A stretch of DNA of 64,000 nt, from NCBI GenBank assembly GCA_944388965.1, contig CALXKL010000001.1, positions 1 to 64,000 of the forward strand, in the 5' to 3' direction. The DNA comes from an uncultured Spirochaetales bacterium. GTDB lineage: Bacteria; Spirochaetota; Spirochaetia; Sphaerochaetales; Sphaerochaetaceae. Position 1 is the first letter of the stretch. Each line of letters starts with the position of its first letter. The notes beneath the pieces were generated by a model. That model was not told the DNA's origin. It ran no database searches and saw only the letters and a list, made by a program, of their open reading frames with translations. This document shows, piece after piece, positions 3,265-8,194 of the stretch. Both the position numbers and the translations under genes were made by a program.

Positions 3265-4257
3265 ATGCATATCAGACTGAGCAATCTGAAAAGGGACTAC
3301 GGTTCGCTTCACGCCGTGCAGGACGTGAGCCTGGACATCCCCTCCAACACGATATACGGGATAATCGGCCGCTCCGGCGCCGGCAAGAGCACGCTGGTGC
3401 GACTGGTGAGCATGCTCGAGCGTCCTGATGCCGGACAGGTGTACTTCGACGACGAACGTGTCGACAACCTGGAGGGCAGGGCCCTGATCGAGAAGAGACG
3501 CAGAATCGGCATGATCTTCCAGAACTTCAATCTCTTCTCATCCCGGGATGCCGCCGGAAACATCGCCTATCCGATGGAGATATGCGGCATGGACAAGGCG
3601 TATATCCGCAAGAGGGTGGATGAACTTCTCGCCCTCGTCGGGCTCGAGGGAAGGGGGAATGCCCCGATCTCGACGCTTTCCGGCGGGCAGAAGCAGCGCG
3701 TCGCGATAGCACGTGCCCTGGCCTGTCAGCCTGACATCCTCTTCTGCGACGAGGCCACCAGCGCCCTGGACCCCCAGACGACCAGGTCGATACTTGCACT
3801 CATCAAGGAGCTTCAGGCGAAGATGAATCTGACCGTCGTCATGATAACCCATCAGATGGAGGTCGTGCGCGACGCCTGTGAACGTGTTGCCGTCCTGGAT
3901 GGAGGACGCATCGTGGAGGAGGGGCTCGTATCCGACATCTTCGCGAATCCGCACAGCGAGGTGACCAAGGACTTCCTGTCGCATCTGACCAACGTCCGTG
4001 ATTCGATTGTCCGCTGGTCGCAGGAGGATGGCCGCTTCACGCTCCGTTTCCGTGGTGACACGACAGACGAGCCGATCATCAGCAACGTATCCAACGAGAC
4101 CGGAGCCGTGTTCAACATCCGTGCCGCCGGTGTCCAGCACGTCGGCGACGAGGAGATGGGCGTCATGGTGCTTGACATCGGCCCGGACGAGAGACATGTC
4201 AGAGAGGCGGTCGAGATGCTGAAGAAATACGGTGTGCTTGTGGAGGGGGATGTATAG
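3265..4257 (+). CDS. metN: Methionine ABC transporter, ATP-binding protein
   Basis: The 330-residue ATPase of the MetNIQ importer for methionine and its derivatives, bound to the inner face of the membrane. Walker A is GRSGAGKST, the signature is LSGGQKQRVAIARAL, Walker B is ILFCDEATSALDP, and the switch His is in MITHQ. After residue 250 comes the NIL-type regulatory domain, which in MetN binds methionine and inhibits transport when the cell is replete. AAGGAAAAAGG precedes ATG 3265. metI starts two bases after the stop. The matching binding-protein gene metQ is 2.5 kb downstream, behind an insert. Confidence 0.93.
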   Translation: MHIRLSNLKRDYGSLHAVQDVSLDIPSNTIYGIIGRSGAGKSTLVRLVSMLERPDAGQVYFDDERVDNLEGRALIEKRRRIGMIFQNFNLFSSRDAAGNIAYPMEICGMDKAYIRKRVDELLALVGLEGRGNAPISTLSGGQKQRVAIARALACQPDILFCDEATSALDPQTTRSILALIKELQAKMNLTVVMITHQMEVVRDACERVAVLDGGRIVEEGLVSDIFANPHSEVTKDFLSHLTNVRDSIVRWSQEDGRFTLRFRGDTTDEPIISNVSNETGAVFNIRAAGVQHVGDEEMGVMVLDIGPDERHVREAVEMLKKYGVLVEGDV

Positions 4258-4258
4258 T

Positions 4259-4924
4259 ATGGATGCTCAGATGATAAGCCAGGTGCTGGAGGCCACAGGC
4301 GAGACGCTTGTGATGGTCTTCTTCTCTACGCTGTTCTCCCTCGTCCTCGGTCTTCCCATAGGCGTCCTGCTGCACATCACGGGACGGGAGCAGGATGGTG
4401 GAATCATTCCACAGCCGGTGTTCAACAGCGTGTTGTCCAGAATCGTGAACGTCCTCAGGTCCTTCCCGTTCATCATCCTGCTGATCGTCCTCATCCCGCT
4501 GTCGCGGCTGATCGTAGGTACAAGCATCGGCACAAAGGCTGCCATAGTGCCGCTCTCGATAGCGGCTGCACCATTTGTGGCCAGGATTATAGAGAGCGCG
4601 CTCAAGGAGGTCGACCCGGGAGTCATCCAGGCTGCGAAGTCGATGGGCTCGACCAACTGGCAGCTGGTGTACAAGGTGCTCATCCCCGAGGCGATGCCGG
4701 CTCTCATGAGCGGCCTGACGCTGACGATCATCAACCTGATAGGCTATTCGGCCATGGCAGGTACGATCGGAGGAGGCGGCCTGGGCGACCTGGCGATAAG
4801 ATACGGCTACCAGCGCTTCCGCCCGAGCTATCTTGTGGCCGCCGTCATCGTCATCCTGGTGATGGTCGAGATCATACAGGTCGTCGGCGACAGGATTGTC
4901 AAGAAGATGATGGCAAGACGCTGA
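4259..4924 (+). CDS. metI: Methionine ABC transporter, permease
   Basis: A 221-residue membrane permease forming the channel of MetNIQ. It has five to six hydrophobic helices, and near residue 125 the EAA-type loop (KSMGSTNWQLVYKVLIPEAM) that docks on MetN. ATG 4259 is preferred because GGAGGGGG ends about 10 bases upstream inside the metN 3' end; ATG 4271 is a possible alternative. It is closely coupled to metN and followed at once by a strong terminator, so metNI is a two-gene transcript separate from metQ. Confidence 0.93.
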   Translation: MDAQMISQVLEATGETLVMVFFSTLFSLVLGLPIGVLLHITGREQDGGIIPQPVFNSVLSRIVNVLRSFPFIILLIVLIPLSRLIVGTSIGTKAAIVPLSIAAAPFVARIIESALKEVDPGVIQAAKSMGSTNWQLVYKVLIPEAMPALMSGLTLTIINLIGYSAMAGTIGGGGLGDLAIRYGYQRFRPSYLVAAVIVILVMVEIIQVVGDRIVKKMMARR

Positions 4925-4981: not shown

Positions 4982-5129
4982 CCAAACCATCAGATGGACG
5001 CGAATTGGTGCAGCCTTTCTGTGGGCTCATTCAGATTACAAATTTCACATTTTCGGATTTATTACCGCTTTACAGTATCTGGTTCTATGATTCAGAATGA
5101 GTGCGAAATCAAAGACAAGGAGTGTATAT

Positions 5130-5702
5130 ATGAGAAGAAGATTGATTTCTGCCATGCTCCTGATACTTACCGCCTCGTGTCTATTTGCAACTCGTGGGGG
5201 GGGGTACATATCGACAGCATTAGGAATTGAGATTCCGCTTGCAGGTTACGAAATATCCGGCGATGTGACACGCGGAGTCAGCACGGTTGACTATTTCGAC
5301 GCTGGAGGAAGGCTCGACATCTCCGCCGGCTATATGTTCAACGACTGGGCAGGACTTGGTTTCGGAACCGGGCTTGTCTATAGTGGAACCGACATGGTCG
5401 CATTTGATGACATGTTTATCATCCCTTTCACTGCAGACATCCTTATTGACCCTGGAACTGGAAACATATCGTTCCCACTTGTCTTATCTGTCGGAGGTCA
5501 TGTCCAGTTTCTGGATGACACATTCGGATTAGGTCCGGCATTCGGACTTTCTGCCGGAATTATGATTAGACCGACTGAATCGTTCTCCATCGGTTGGAAC
5601 GCAAGAGCTGACCTGCTGATGCAGTTCGCCGATGATTTCGAGACCACGACTTGCCAGATATTCCTGGCTCCACTGCAGGTTCAGATGACCTGTAGCCTAT
5701 AG
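5130..5702 (+). CDS. Putative outer-membrane beta-barrel protein, with G9 tract
   Basis: A 190-residue exported protein with no family I can name. The signal peptide MRRRLISAMLLILTASCLFA is followed by a mature part of alternating short beta-strands rich in Gly, Asp and aromatic residues (GYMFNDWAGLGFGTGLVYSG), typical of small eight-stranded barrels. ATG 5130 is chosen over 5097 because AAGGAG lies 7 bases upstream and the signal peptide then starts cleanly. A run of nine G (5196-5204) encodes Gly-Gly-Gly just after the signal peptide; one base more or less would end translation early. The gene has lower GC than metI and metQ and lies between them. It overlaps the ribosome site of the next gene. 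Confidence 0.72.
   Translation: MRRRLISAMLLILTASCLFATRGGGYISTALGIEIPLAGYEISGDVTRGVSTVDYFDAGGRLDISAGYMFNDWAGLGFGTGLVYSGTDMVAFDDMFIIPFTADILIDPGTGNISFPLVLSVGGHVQFLDDTFGLGPAFGLSAGIMIRPTESFSIGWNARADLLMQFADDFETTTCQIFLAPLQVQMTCSL
5196..5204 (+). repeat. Homopolymeric G9 tract inside the beta-barrel gene
   Basis: Nine consecutive G directly after the signal-peptide codons. With nine G the long frame is open; with eight or ten it is not. Such tracts are classic slipped-strand sites. Confidence 0.9.
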
Positions 5703-5712
5703 GAGGTGCCAA

Positions 5713-6999
5713 GTGAATGTGAGAACAATTTCCATGCTGTTTGTAGCACTGCTTTCCATATGTCTTTATTCCTGCTCTCTGCAGATGTCGGACGGTTCTG
5801 TGTTCCAGGATGCCGTGATGGAGGAGACCGAGACGGTCCGCCCGGGTTCATCGTATAACCCATATGAGATTTCATCCTATGGTGATCTTGTCGATATGTT
5901 TGAATTAGTTGTCGGTTCCGGCCGAAGTGTGAAGGCTGTTCTGACATCCGATATCGTCATCCCGACACCTGAGGATCCTAATGACAGAACACTAGTGGAC
6001 TTTCCTGAAGGAGTGGATATAGACCTCGATCTCAGAGGACATTCGATTATTCCGGCTGAAGACCTTTCCGGTACTAACAAGTACCTTGCCGGAGTCTATG
6101 GTAGCCTGAATGTTCACGACGGAAGACTCGGCGATGATGATCTTGAGGGTCATCCAATATCGCGGGTGTTATGGGTACTCCCCGGTGCGGAGCTCGAGCT
6201 CAGGAACGTTACAGTGTGTGCCTATTCGACAACTTATGGCTCGGCAATATACGTGGATGGATATGCGATGATTGACAAATCGGAGATACATGGAACCAAG
6301 TTTGCCATGGCGGTCACCGAATCTGGAAGTTGCCTGATAAGGGGTAACAGCCTCTTCACGTCAATCGCAAGCAATCGCCTGACATACGATGGATCAGGTA
6401 CTGATGGCTATGCATATACGCTGTATTCCGACGGCGACATCACCATCGAGAGTGCACGAGTCTTCGGCCTCCAGGGTGCGATATCAATAAACGCTGGCAG
6501 TGCAAGACTGTATGATGGCGTGTACGCTCATGCTACAGAGAACATCATGAAGATTGGCATCATGCCTCAGGACTATGAGACATTCTACCTGGCCCACAGA
6601 AGGGAACAGTTTAAAGGACAGAATGGTCCTGTGGAGGATGAGCTCTACTATGGCCTTTATGTTGCGGGAGAGACGAATCTCGCCAACGAACCACAGTGTG
6701 CCATCTATGGTGGCGAGTATATCAGCAACCACAAGAATGCTGTTCAGGTTGGCAATGCCAATGATGGTGGAGTCGGAGCAACGGCCTATGCCGTAATCTA
6801 TGCGGGAAGATTTACCAATGGGGCCGGGGTGAACTATGCTATCTATGCTGAAGGAGATCCTGGGTATGGGCATGGAGTTATTTCCATAGAAGGTGGATTG
6901 TTCCGTTCCAATGTGAATCTTAATCAGCTCATTGATGATACCCAATTCAAAATCGAAGGGCCCCGGAGTGATGGATACTACGAGGTCGTGCCTGTCTGA
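5713..6999 (+). CDS. Putative surface lipoprotein with beta-helix-like repeats
   Basis: A 428-residue exported protein. The N-terminal segment ends in LYSC, a relaxed spirochaetal lipobox with Cys21, so it is probably lipid-anchored. Most of the chain (about 90-410) is a series of short strands with GSAIYVDGYAMIDKSEIHG-like turns, resembling right-handed parallel beta-helix proteins of the pectate-lyase fold; I see no catalytic motif. The start is GTG 5713, with AGGAGG at 5701-5706. It starts 10 bases after the beta-barrel stop, so the two are one transcription unit. Base composition is visibly less GC-rich than in the met genes on both sides. A binding or adhesion role is only a guess. Confidence 0.72.
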   Translation: MNVRTISMLFVALLSICLYSCSLQMSDGSVFQDAVMEETETVRPGSSYNPYEISSYGDLVDMFELVVGSGRSVKAVLTSDIVIPTPEDPNDRTLVDFPEGVDIDLDLRGHSIIPAEDLSGTNKYLAGVYGSLNVHDGRLGDDDLEGHPISRVLWVLPGAELELRNVTVCAYSTTYGSAIYVDGYAMIDKSEIHGTKFAMAVTESGSCLIRGNSLFTSIASNRLTYDGSGTDGYAYTLYSDGDITIESARVFGLQGAISINAGSARLYDGVYAHATENIMKIGIMPQDYETFYLAHRREQFKGQNGPVEDELYYGLYVAGETNLANEPQCAIYGGEYISNHKNAVQVGNANDGGVGATAYAVIYAGRFTNGAGVNYAIYAEGDPGYGHGVISIEGGLFRSNVNLNQLIDDTQFKIEGPRSDGYYEVVPV

Positions 7000-7061: not shown

Positions 7062-7178
7062 CCTTCTTGTGGCAGATTGCGGCAGTAAATTGGCAATTTT
7101 ACTAACGGATAATTCCTTCTGTGACAATAAAATATTCATAATAACTGAATAAAAATCGAGGAATTTGCATAAAACCAC

Positions 7179-7208
7179 TTGAAAATGACCGTCCCTGTCC
7201 TGTATTCT
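7179..7208 (+). promoter_or_regulatory. Candidate promoter of the metQ leader and metQ
   Basis: TTGAAA (7179-7184), 18 bases, TATTCT (7203-7208). Transcription would start near 7215, about 12 bases before the leader-peptide Shine-Dalgarno. Confidence 0.4.
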
Positions 7209-7226
7209 CTAACCATCTTGAAGAAA

Positions 7227-7314
7227 GGAGGACATCGAGATGACAGTCTACAGAACATCCGCATCCACGATGATGATGTCCTCCATGATGATGCCCGTGA
7301 GGGCATAGTATCAT
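7227..7314 (+). promoter_or_regulatory. Leader RNA structure: SD/Met-codon stem and second hairpin
   Basis: GGAGGACATC (7227-7236), which contains the leader Shine-Dalgarno, is the exact reverse complement of GATGTCCTCC (7275-7284), which lies over the third Met codon and the two Ser codons of the leader. Directly next to it, ATGCCC (7291-7296) pairs with GGGCAT (7301-7306) around a GTGA tetraloop, with an outer ATGAT/ATCAT pair (7285-7289, 7310-7314). No U tract follows. The region 7315-7370 is AC-rich and has almost no G. The pairing is seen in the sequence; the regulatory meaning is inferred. Confidence 0.55.
7240..7308 (+). CDS. Methionine-rich leader peptide of metQ (22 residues)
   Basis: ATG 7240 to TAG 7306-7308 encodes 22 residues, seven of them Met, with the core MMMSSMMM at residues 11-18. 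The Shine-Dalgarno AAAGGAGGA (7224-7232) is among the strongest in the window and has ideal spacing. The ORF is 79 bases upstream of metQ, the gene for the methionine-binding protein. This is the layout of amino-acid attenuator leaders (trpL, hisL, ilvL), where runs of the codons of the regulated amino acid let the ribosome sense charged tRNA. I infer that it measures Met-tRNA supply. An alternative is a tiny Met-rich metal-binding peptide, but the context makes that less likely. Confidence 0.7.
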   Translation: MTVYRTSASTMMMSSMMMPVRA

Positions 7315-7387
7315 TCATTTCAACAACCACAACATTTTCAGGCAATCAATCAATTCTGACAAAAAACAAATGGAGAGAGTATACACT

Positions 7388-8194
7388 ATGAAGAGAATAG
7401 CAATCATTCTGCTTGTCGCAATCGCATCCTGCACCTTCGTCTTCGCCGCTGGCGCCGCCGAGTCCACTGACTCCTCGCTTCTGAGAGTCGGGGCATCCCC
7501 CGAACCCCATGGCACACTGCTGAACCTCGTCGTCGATGACCTGGCACAGCAGGGCATCACGCTCGAGATCGTCGAGTTCACGGACTATGTCATGCCGAAC
7601 GAGGCGCTCCAGGCCGGAGAGATCGACGCCAACTACTTCCAGCATCTGCCGTATCTCGAGTCGTTCAACCTCGAGCGCGGATTCGATCTGGTCTCCGCAG
7701 GCGGCATCCACATCGAGCCGATGGCGCTGTATTCCACGAAGTACTCGTCGCTCGACGCGATTCCCGACGGTGCGACCATCGCGATTCCGAACGACCCGAC
7801 CAACGAGGGCAGGGCTCTCCTGCTGCTCGAATCCGCCGGTCTGATCGAGCTTTCCGATGACGCCGGAATCGAGGCCGTCCCCGCCGATGTCACATCCAAC
7901 CCCCATGGCTACAATTTCAGCGAGATCGAGGCGGCATCCCTGCCAAGGATCCTCGATGATGCCGATGCAGCCGTGATCAATGGCAACTATGCGATTCCCG
8001 CCGGACTCATCGCGACCCGTGACGGCCTGTATGTCGAAGGTGGCGACAGCCCCTATGTCAACGTCATCGCGGTCCAGAACGGACACGAGGCAGACCCTGC
8101 CATCCAGGCGCTTGTCGAGGCGCTCAAGAGCGAGGAGGTCGCATCCTTCGTCGCCCAGAACTATCCCAACGGAGAGGTCATTCTGGTGGACTGA
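7388..8194 (+). CDS. metQ: Methionine ABC transporter, substrate-binding protein
   Basis: A 268-residue MetQ/NlpA-family protein that captures methionine outside the inner membrane and delivers it to MetNI. The short signal sequence ends in IASC (Cys15), a plausible lipobox, so it is likely a lipoprotein; an alternative cut is after FAAGA. Family patterns include LRVGASPEPHG near the start, a PNEALQAGEIDANYFQH segment, IAIPNDPTNEGRALLLL and AVINGNYA. ATG 7388 has GGAGAGAG 8 bases upstream. Unlike in most bacteria it is not adjacent to metNI. It has its own promoter region with the Met-rich leader. Confidence 0.93.
   Translation: MKRIAIILLVAIASCTFVFAAGAAESTDSSLLRVGASPEPHGTLLNLVVDDLAQQGITLEIVEFTDYVMPNEALQAGEIDANYFQHLPYLESFNLERGFDLVSAGGIHIEPMALYSTKYSSLDAIPDGATIAIPNDPTNEGRALLLLESAGLIELSDDAGIEAVPADVTSNPHGYNFSEIEAASLPRILDDADAAVINGNYAIPAGLIATRDGLYVEGGDSPYVNVIAVQNGHEADPAIQALVEALKSEEVASFVAQNYPNGEVILVD

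Follow-up and report, generated by a model that had tools for sequence, protein, structure and literature searches.

Here we report that metQ, the gene for a methionine-binding lipoprotein in an uncultured Spirochaetales bacterium, is preceded by a short methionine-rich reading frame and two hairpins, P1 and P2, that are conserved together in the family Sphaerochaetaceae. We consider the element likely to be a methionine leader-peptide attenuator that senses the charging of Met-tRNA; the sensing step is inferred, without data from expression measurements, ribosome profiling or mutants. SAM riboswitches, T-boxes or MetJ are the controls usually described for bacterial methionine genes. Attenuation through the Met codons of a leader has previously been suggested only for single cases, and the system described here is a well-supported, family-level one, the support consisting of codon selection, covariation and a small regulon, in a group about whose gene regulation little is known. 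Its architecture is also new: pairing with the control-codon region conceals the ribosome site of the leader itself.

A methionine-rich leader ORF upstream of metQ

All features described below lie on the forward (+) strand of the window, by which we mean the whole 64,000-nucleotide stretch analysed. The leader ORF (7240-7308) runs from an ATG at 7240 to a TAG at 7306-7308 (codons ATG ACA GTC TAC AGA ACA TCC GCA TCC ACG ATG ATG ATG TCC TCC ATG ATG ATG CCC GTG AGG GCA TAG) and encodes the 22-residue peptide MTVYRTSASTMMMSSMMMPVRA, whose seven Met, including the start, comprise triplets at residues 11-13 and 16-18. Both hairpins overlap these codons: the 3' end of the first run (run 1, codons 11-13, 7270-7278) overlaps the 3' arm of P1, and the last codon of the second (run 2, codons 16-18, 7285-7293) opens the 5' arm of P2. 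The leader Shine-Dalgarno (SD) sequence, AAAGGAGGA, lies at 7224-7232, and a purine-rich SD precedes the start codon in nearly all relatives. A consensus scan identified a promoter-like site, TTGAAA-N18-TATTCT, at 7179-7208, and TTGAAA and TATTCT/TATGCT blocks are repeated upstream of several leaders of the same genus. From this promoter-like site only, we infer that the metQ transcript starts about 15-25 nt ahead of the leader SD.

By its Met content alone the leader ORF is not unique and falls within chance for 64 kb: 13 of the window's 669 short ORFs contain at least five internal Met, and the leader's Met fraction of 29%, the highest among them, is followed by a runner-up at 25%. Conservation is therefore needed as the decider. 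The above-chance case for the leader rests on its good SD, the promoter-like site, a fold of unusual stability (z -3.1; 0/200 shuffles) and, above all, conservation.

The leader stop codon is separated by exactly 79 bases from the start of metQ (7388-8194; 268 aa from its ATG). The product belongs to the MetQ/NlpA family of lipoproteins (Pfam PF03180, 302 bits), its best NCBIfam matches, MetQ and MetQ/NlpA-type, both lying below their curated cut-offs. A start at 7388 is supported by the SD GGAGAGAG at 7372-7379 and by the orthologues, which likewise begin MKK or MKR; the mechanically called ORF start at 7370, six codons too early, was rejected on these grounds. The initial annotation, made from sequence alone, had described the ORF and its SD, the seven Met in 22 residues, the position of the triplets and the 79-base gap, and all of these details held.

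The partners of metQ lie further upstream: metN (3265-4257), an ABC ATPase with a NIL domain (PF00005, PF09383), and metI (4232-4924), an ABC permease (PF00528). metN has no leader of its own, the refined model R2 (see below) finding a single element in the window genome. Two ORFs without a Pfam match (5097-6999) separate metNI from the leader-metQ unit, and in some relatives a terminator, followed by the leader, comes directly after metI.

Known methionine control systems at the locus

Neither a SAM-I riboswitch (genome search) nor MetJ was found in the window genome, and the window contains no match to an Rfam SAM riboswitch, T-box or other riboswitch; SAM riboswitch classes other than SAM-I were searched for within the window only. 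The genome's only T-box (L115, G000:C7:110183-110403) scores below the Rfam cut-off and lies before an apparent threonyl-tRNA synthetase gene, thrS. Control of the metQ locus by a recognisable SAM-I riboswitch, T-box or MetJ is not borne out, and the earlier observation that none of these is visible here stands. The window genome also encodes no PF01717 (MetE) and no PF01053 (MetB/C/Y) protein. Because these enzymes are lacking, uptake is probably its main source of methionine, an inference we regard as likely, MetH having been outside the search.

One other genome (G024) carries a SAM-I riboswitch before an apparent metK (L225, G024:C5) and a Met leader before metQ (L091, G024:C7); control by SAM-I riboswitch and by Met leader therefore coexist.

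Conservation of the leader and selection on its reading frame

A metQ protein search over 61 relatives supplied loci with upstream DNA. In every same-genus relative with readable upstream sequence, metQ is preceded by a Met-rich ORF that has an SD, and the same holds for three loci from three other genera (L011, L017, L021); MTYNVDYRHCAMMMSSMMMPVRA, MTAATASVFTMMMSSMQMMMPVRA, MTNNIYAMCSVSMMASSMMMMPVWA and MNSFFISLMCFTSMMCPCRA are examples of the relatives' leader peptides. A covariance model built from the leader elements of nine relatives (R1) matched 80 of 139 Sphaerochaetaceae genomes, representing 8 of 22 genera and including all 16 genomes of the window's own genus. Among the carriers are the cultured Bullifex porci, Candidatus Aphodenecus, Candidatus Ornithospirochaeta and Pleomorphochaeta; elsewhere in the family, several genera have metQ directly after metI with no leader between them (by eye). 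When the refined model R2 was run over the phylum (393 genomes), the element was confined to Sphaerochaetaceae. The one match outside the family (L235, in G410) lies inside an antiporter-like gene and has a broken P2, a match within it (L236) is without a matching P2, and both were judged to be chance.

We collected 89 leader copies with flanking DNA, giving 86 distinct peptides, all Met-rich. Internal Met, the start codon excluded, amount to 26% over the 89 leaders, with 3-8 Met per leader at shifting positions. From the start codon to the last Met, 468 ATG fall in the leader frame versus 10 out of frame. The distance from start codon to P2 takes several lengths between 36 and 75 nt and is a multiple of three in 87/89; the two exceptions, L015 and L016, have a slightly different P2 and still end in frame. 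Counted from the last Met in 87 leaders, codons -1, -2 and -3 are Met in 100, 89 and 83%, and codons -6, -7 and -8 in 64, 57 and 74%; the N-terminal half of the leader is variable across copies. This comparative evidence shows that selection acts on the leader ORF, on its SD and on the Met codons as codons.

A conservation check proposed in the initial annotation, namely whether the ORF and its Met runs are kept while the surroundings vary, is passed in every relative of the window's own genus with readable upstream sequence and in seven further genera. Its inference of a methionine leader peptide is supported by the same comparative evidence, sensing itself remaining an inference. What it had missed were the pairing of the SD with the segment between the runs, the hairpin on the stop codon and earlier proposals of Met leaders.

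An alternative is that the conserved RNA itself binds a metabolite, as a new SAM or methionine riboswitch, and that the ORF is incidental. That two conserved hairpins stand before met genes, and that one sequesters an SD, would suit such a reading, which we nevertheless consider very unlikely. The frame is kept despite varying loop length, ATG codons are overwhelmingly in frame, the P1 loop is variable in length and its sequence is not conserved, Met codons occur in the unpaired spacer as well as in the stems, and no Rfam riboswitch matches the window. We rejected the riboswitch reading on the strength of frame conservation and the absence of Rfam matches.

The commonest replacement for Met at codons -7 (20/87) and -2 (7/87) from the last Met is Cys, which at these two control codons might perhaps serve as a signal for a second sulphur amino acid.

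Pairing of the leader SD with the control-codon region in P1

The 5' arm of P1, GGAGGACATC (7227-7236), contains the leader SD and pairs with 7275-7284, the 3' arm GATGTCCTCC, an anti-Shine-Dalgarno (anti-SD) segment made up of the Ser-Ser codons between the Met runs. Compensatory changes on both sides were found at 10/10 P1 pairs over the 89 sequences, and P1 and P2 together have 94.3% of cells paired in that alignment, versus 38-55% when the pairing is slid. The alignment was fitted to the structure, so the paired fraction is not independent, and for this reason we made an independent swap test, in which windows were anchored only on the start codon and P2 and duplex energies were compared between same-species and swapped pairs. 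The duplex of leader SD and anti-SD was far better in its own species (0/2000 permutations), and among 55 region pairs compared, strong co-evolution was seen only in this one (t -9.8). P1 was also predicted without guidance, both in the RNAalifold consensus of nine sequences and in the single-sequence MFE fold. The folding model has the leader SD mostly paired in free RNA (mean accessibility 0.11), and the N-terminal leader codons apparently avoid pairing with the SD or the anti-SD. Taken together, the comparative evidence shows that the leader SD is paired, its partner lying between the first Met codons or directly behind them.

A rival reading is translational attenuation of the erm type, in which both the leader SD and the metQ SD would have the anti-SD as a partner and a stalled ribosome would set the metQ SD free. 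The leader SD and the gene SD are necessarily alike, and with the leader SD occupied the metQ SD pairs with the anti-SD in a minority of folds, strongly in L048, L055, L061 and L067. Against this, folding with ribosome-blocked segments in five states gave a mean metQ SD accessibility of 0.34 in free RNA, 0.29 with initiation and 0.34-0.37 with stalled or terminating ribosomes, and complementarity of the gene SD to the anti-SD was no better in its own species than when swapped (971/2000 permutations). Sequestration and release of the metQ SD, the criterion for erm-type control, is not supported, and we consider this explanation very unlikely.

P2 spans the end of the leader and is followed by a G-poor tract

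P2 (7291-7306; ATGCCC-GTGA-GGGCAT) begins with the last Met codon and closes on the first base of the stop. Its consensus, ATGCCC-NNNN-GGGCAT, combines a nearly invariant stem with a variable loop, and 99.4% of its cells are paired over the 89 sequences; in L109 a G-C pair is swapped to C-G, and the same GCGC form occurs a second time in L234. The hairpin dictates the P-x-R/W-A end of the peptide (CCC-NNN-NGG-GCA). In four leaders (L021, L093, L094, L109) the stop codon lies in the P2 loop, so that P-x-R-A is lost while P2 and the Met codons are kept.

These data bear on a further alternative, a ligand-sensing arrest peptide, in which Met or SAM in the ribosome tunnel would stall the ribosome on MMMPxRA*, as in TnaC. 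The C-terminal MMMP-x-R-A-stop is indeed strongly conserved in most members, which speaks for such a peptide. However, the P-x-R/W-A end follows from P2 and the four leaders just mentioned lack it, and the Met positions shift and vary in number. Because the Met residues move and P2 dictates P-x-R-A, sensing of tRNA charging fits better than a specific arrest peptide, which we regard as very unlikely.

After P2 comes a G-poor, U/C/A-rich tract (7307-7336), the first part of which is U-rich. The 25 nt after P2 contain no more than one G in 80% of leaders, versus 5% of control non-coding windows, and column frequencies place the U-rich part at 7-15 nt after GGGC. The comparative evidence thus shows that P2 spans the last Met codon to the stop and is followed by a G-free, U-rich tract. 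P2 with its tract passes a terminator-like rule in 46/88, and 51/88 leader-to-gene intervals contain any terminator-like site, versus 3.2 expected in shuffles. In the window a strict scan detected no canonical intrinsic terminator between leader and metQ; the U-tract there begins several bases after P2, and its T-tail score is about 2.0-3.4, depending on the stem end chosen, where a perfect tract scores 5.8.

A conserved third segment competing with P2, as in a terminator/antiterminator switch, was not found in all members. A third hairpin, P3 (GGTCC..GGGACAT), lies about 50 nt after P2 in many sequences of the Ornithospirochaeta group, without a U-run. It is absent from the window species (by eye) and from the consensus fold, and a duplex between its GGACAT arm and ATGTCC in the leader failed to track changes in the leader (by eye); P3 was not retained.

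The G-free tract may alternatively be a loading site for Rho, a sub-model of the leader-peptide reading in which leader translation would decide whether Rho catches RNA polymerase before metQ, as in the tna operon leader. The G-depletion after P2 is consistent with this, as are an excess of C over G in 83/88 intervals, a Rho encoded in the genome (PF07497), the lack of a strong intrinsic terminator in the strict scan of the window, and the precedent of terminator-less Cys leaders of Actinobacteria, for which Rho has been proposed (PMC1262725). On the other hand, the tract is at first U-rich, not C-rich, and a ribosome stalled upstream of it would not cover it, so the polarity required of Rho needs an extra step. 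We view Rho-dependent attenuation as possible and no more than that.

Genes behind the leader

Comparison of the 89 copies shows that the element stands before methionine uptake and synthesis genes. MetQ-type genes follow 83 of them, including a few two-domain MetQ and one metQNI. The other six include leaders before metNIQ (L104), before metA (L111; PF04204, 388 bits) and before the gene for an O-acetylhomoserine sulfhydrylase (L108; TIGR01326, 637 bits), as well as one before a pair encoding an Fe-ADH oxidoreductase and an aminotransferase (L090), the best NCBIfam relatives of which are PRK10586 and aminotransferases including methionine-aminotransferase models. In genus g5 (L096, L103) the leader precedes an operon of a family-5 (oligo/dipeptide-type) solute-binding protein and permease; this placement hints at Met-responsive peptide uptake, a possibility we raise only tentatively.

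Five leaders (L078, L079, L083, L092, L114) belong to genes for a two-domain, apparently permuted, MetQ-type protein with its own Met leader, and in L092 and L114 a gene for an M20-like amidohydrolase follows (by eye).

A model for attenuation at the Met runs

Because an element with two hairpins is conserved almost only before methionine genes, Met-dependent switching of these genes is very probable. Three of the features expected of a leader-peptide attenuator, namely a Met-rich short ORF with an SD, methionine genes downstream and a selected reading frame, are present, the transcript start being inferred. In the model that we propose, ribosomes on the Met codons of the leader would gauge charged Met-tRNA, and each Met run would guard one hairpin, run 1 guarding P1 and run 2 guarding P2. 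When methionine is plentiful, ribosomes would pass quickly, P1 would close and hide the leader SD, and P2 would form on the empty leader; most transcripts would then end at P2 and the U-tract, or be lost to Rho or decay, and metQ would be low. When methionine is short, a ribosome on run 1 would cover the anti-SD, P1 would stay open and more ribosomes would load, a ribosome on run 2 would cover the 5' arm of P2 and keep that hairpin open, and the transcript would extend into metQ.

The final output is the least certain step of the attenuator and is unproven. Given the attenuator model, termination of transcription at P2, with P2 and its tract acting as a weak, conditional terminator, is the output we favour, at slightly less than even odds; action of P2 through Rho, or through RNA decay or translation, cannot be dismissed, each being a lesser possibility. 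A difficulty is the unsettled polarity: with a ribosome stalled only on run 1, P2 could still form, and the order and length of the pauses therefore matter.

A bolder reading, which on balance we lean slightly against, is a family-wide spirochaete methionine regulon under one reusable cis element whose two Met runs each hold one hairpin open. Run 1 would expose the leader's own ribosome site, giving self-reinforcing ribosome loading, and run 2 would block a conditional terminator overlapping the stop codon. If true, this would be a self-gated attenuator without an antiterminator. The Met leader can be tested directly in the cultured relative Bullifex porci or with reporters.

Relation to known leader peptides

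The leaders trpL, hisL, leuL, ilvL, thrL and pheL are short translated leaders with runs of codons for the controlled amino acid. The spirochaete element resembles them, its control-codon runs likewise lying in a short leader ORF close to the inferred transcript start. It differs in that a terminator/antiterminator pair shared by all members was not found, the Met-run region of the leader sequesters the leader's own SD, and P2 sits over the stop codon.

The literature searched yielded no paper on Met leaders in spirochaetes, in agreement with the remark in the initial annotation that no Met-codon attenuator was known to have been described in spirochaetes. Met-rich leaders have been proposed elsewhere. 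In Campylobacter jejuni the MetL leader, of 20 aa with 3 Met, precedes metBA and was proposed as a Met-tRNA sensor (PMC3847290, PMC11955535); the 3' end of its leader RNA lies a short way past the stop codon of the leader (PMC3847290), and CJsORF19 (MMYQMR) lies before Cj0772c, a D-Met binding-protein gene (PMC11955535). C. jejuni, C. coli and C. doylei are the only Epsilonproteobacteria in which MetL was found (PMC3847290). In both systems, genes that make or import methionine are preceded by a Met-rich leader; unlike MetL, the Sphaerochaetaceae element occurs in 89 copies across 8 genera, with up to 8 internal Met and several target genes, and carries a covarying SD-sequestering hairpin and a hairpin on the stop codon.

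In Streptomyces lividans, metL (MSTTSDRTPATEATTTPGARCMCRRMCAF) contains Met and Cys codons and precedes metNIQ with no clear intrinsic terminator (PMC8079986), and it is thus similar in having a leader ORF before the same transporter and in lacking a clear terminator. In contrast to the spirochaete leader, it has few Met and its transcript is leaderless, and no conserved hairpins are reported in the relevant sections (PMC8079986). The Cys leaders of Mycobacterium and Propionibacterium have their control-codon run near the stop and no clear terminator, and Rho was suggested for them (PMC1262725); they use Cys, not Met, and have no conserved hairpins, whereas P1 and P2 are conserved in the spirochaete leaders. 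The same 2005 survey of Actinobacteria reported no conserved RNA element of Met operons (PMC1262725).

Two TG[A/C/T]ATAAA-like boxes lie exactly 20 nt apart at 7146-7180, just before or over the promoter-like site, and paired boxes of this kind are also present upstream of other leaders (for example L005, L008, L010 and L041). The two resemble ArgR/AhrC boxes, which also come in pairs, and an ArgR-family protein is encoded in the genome.
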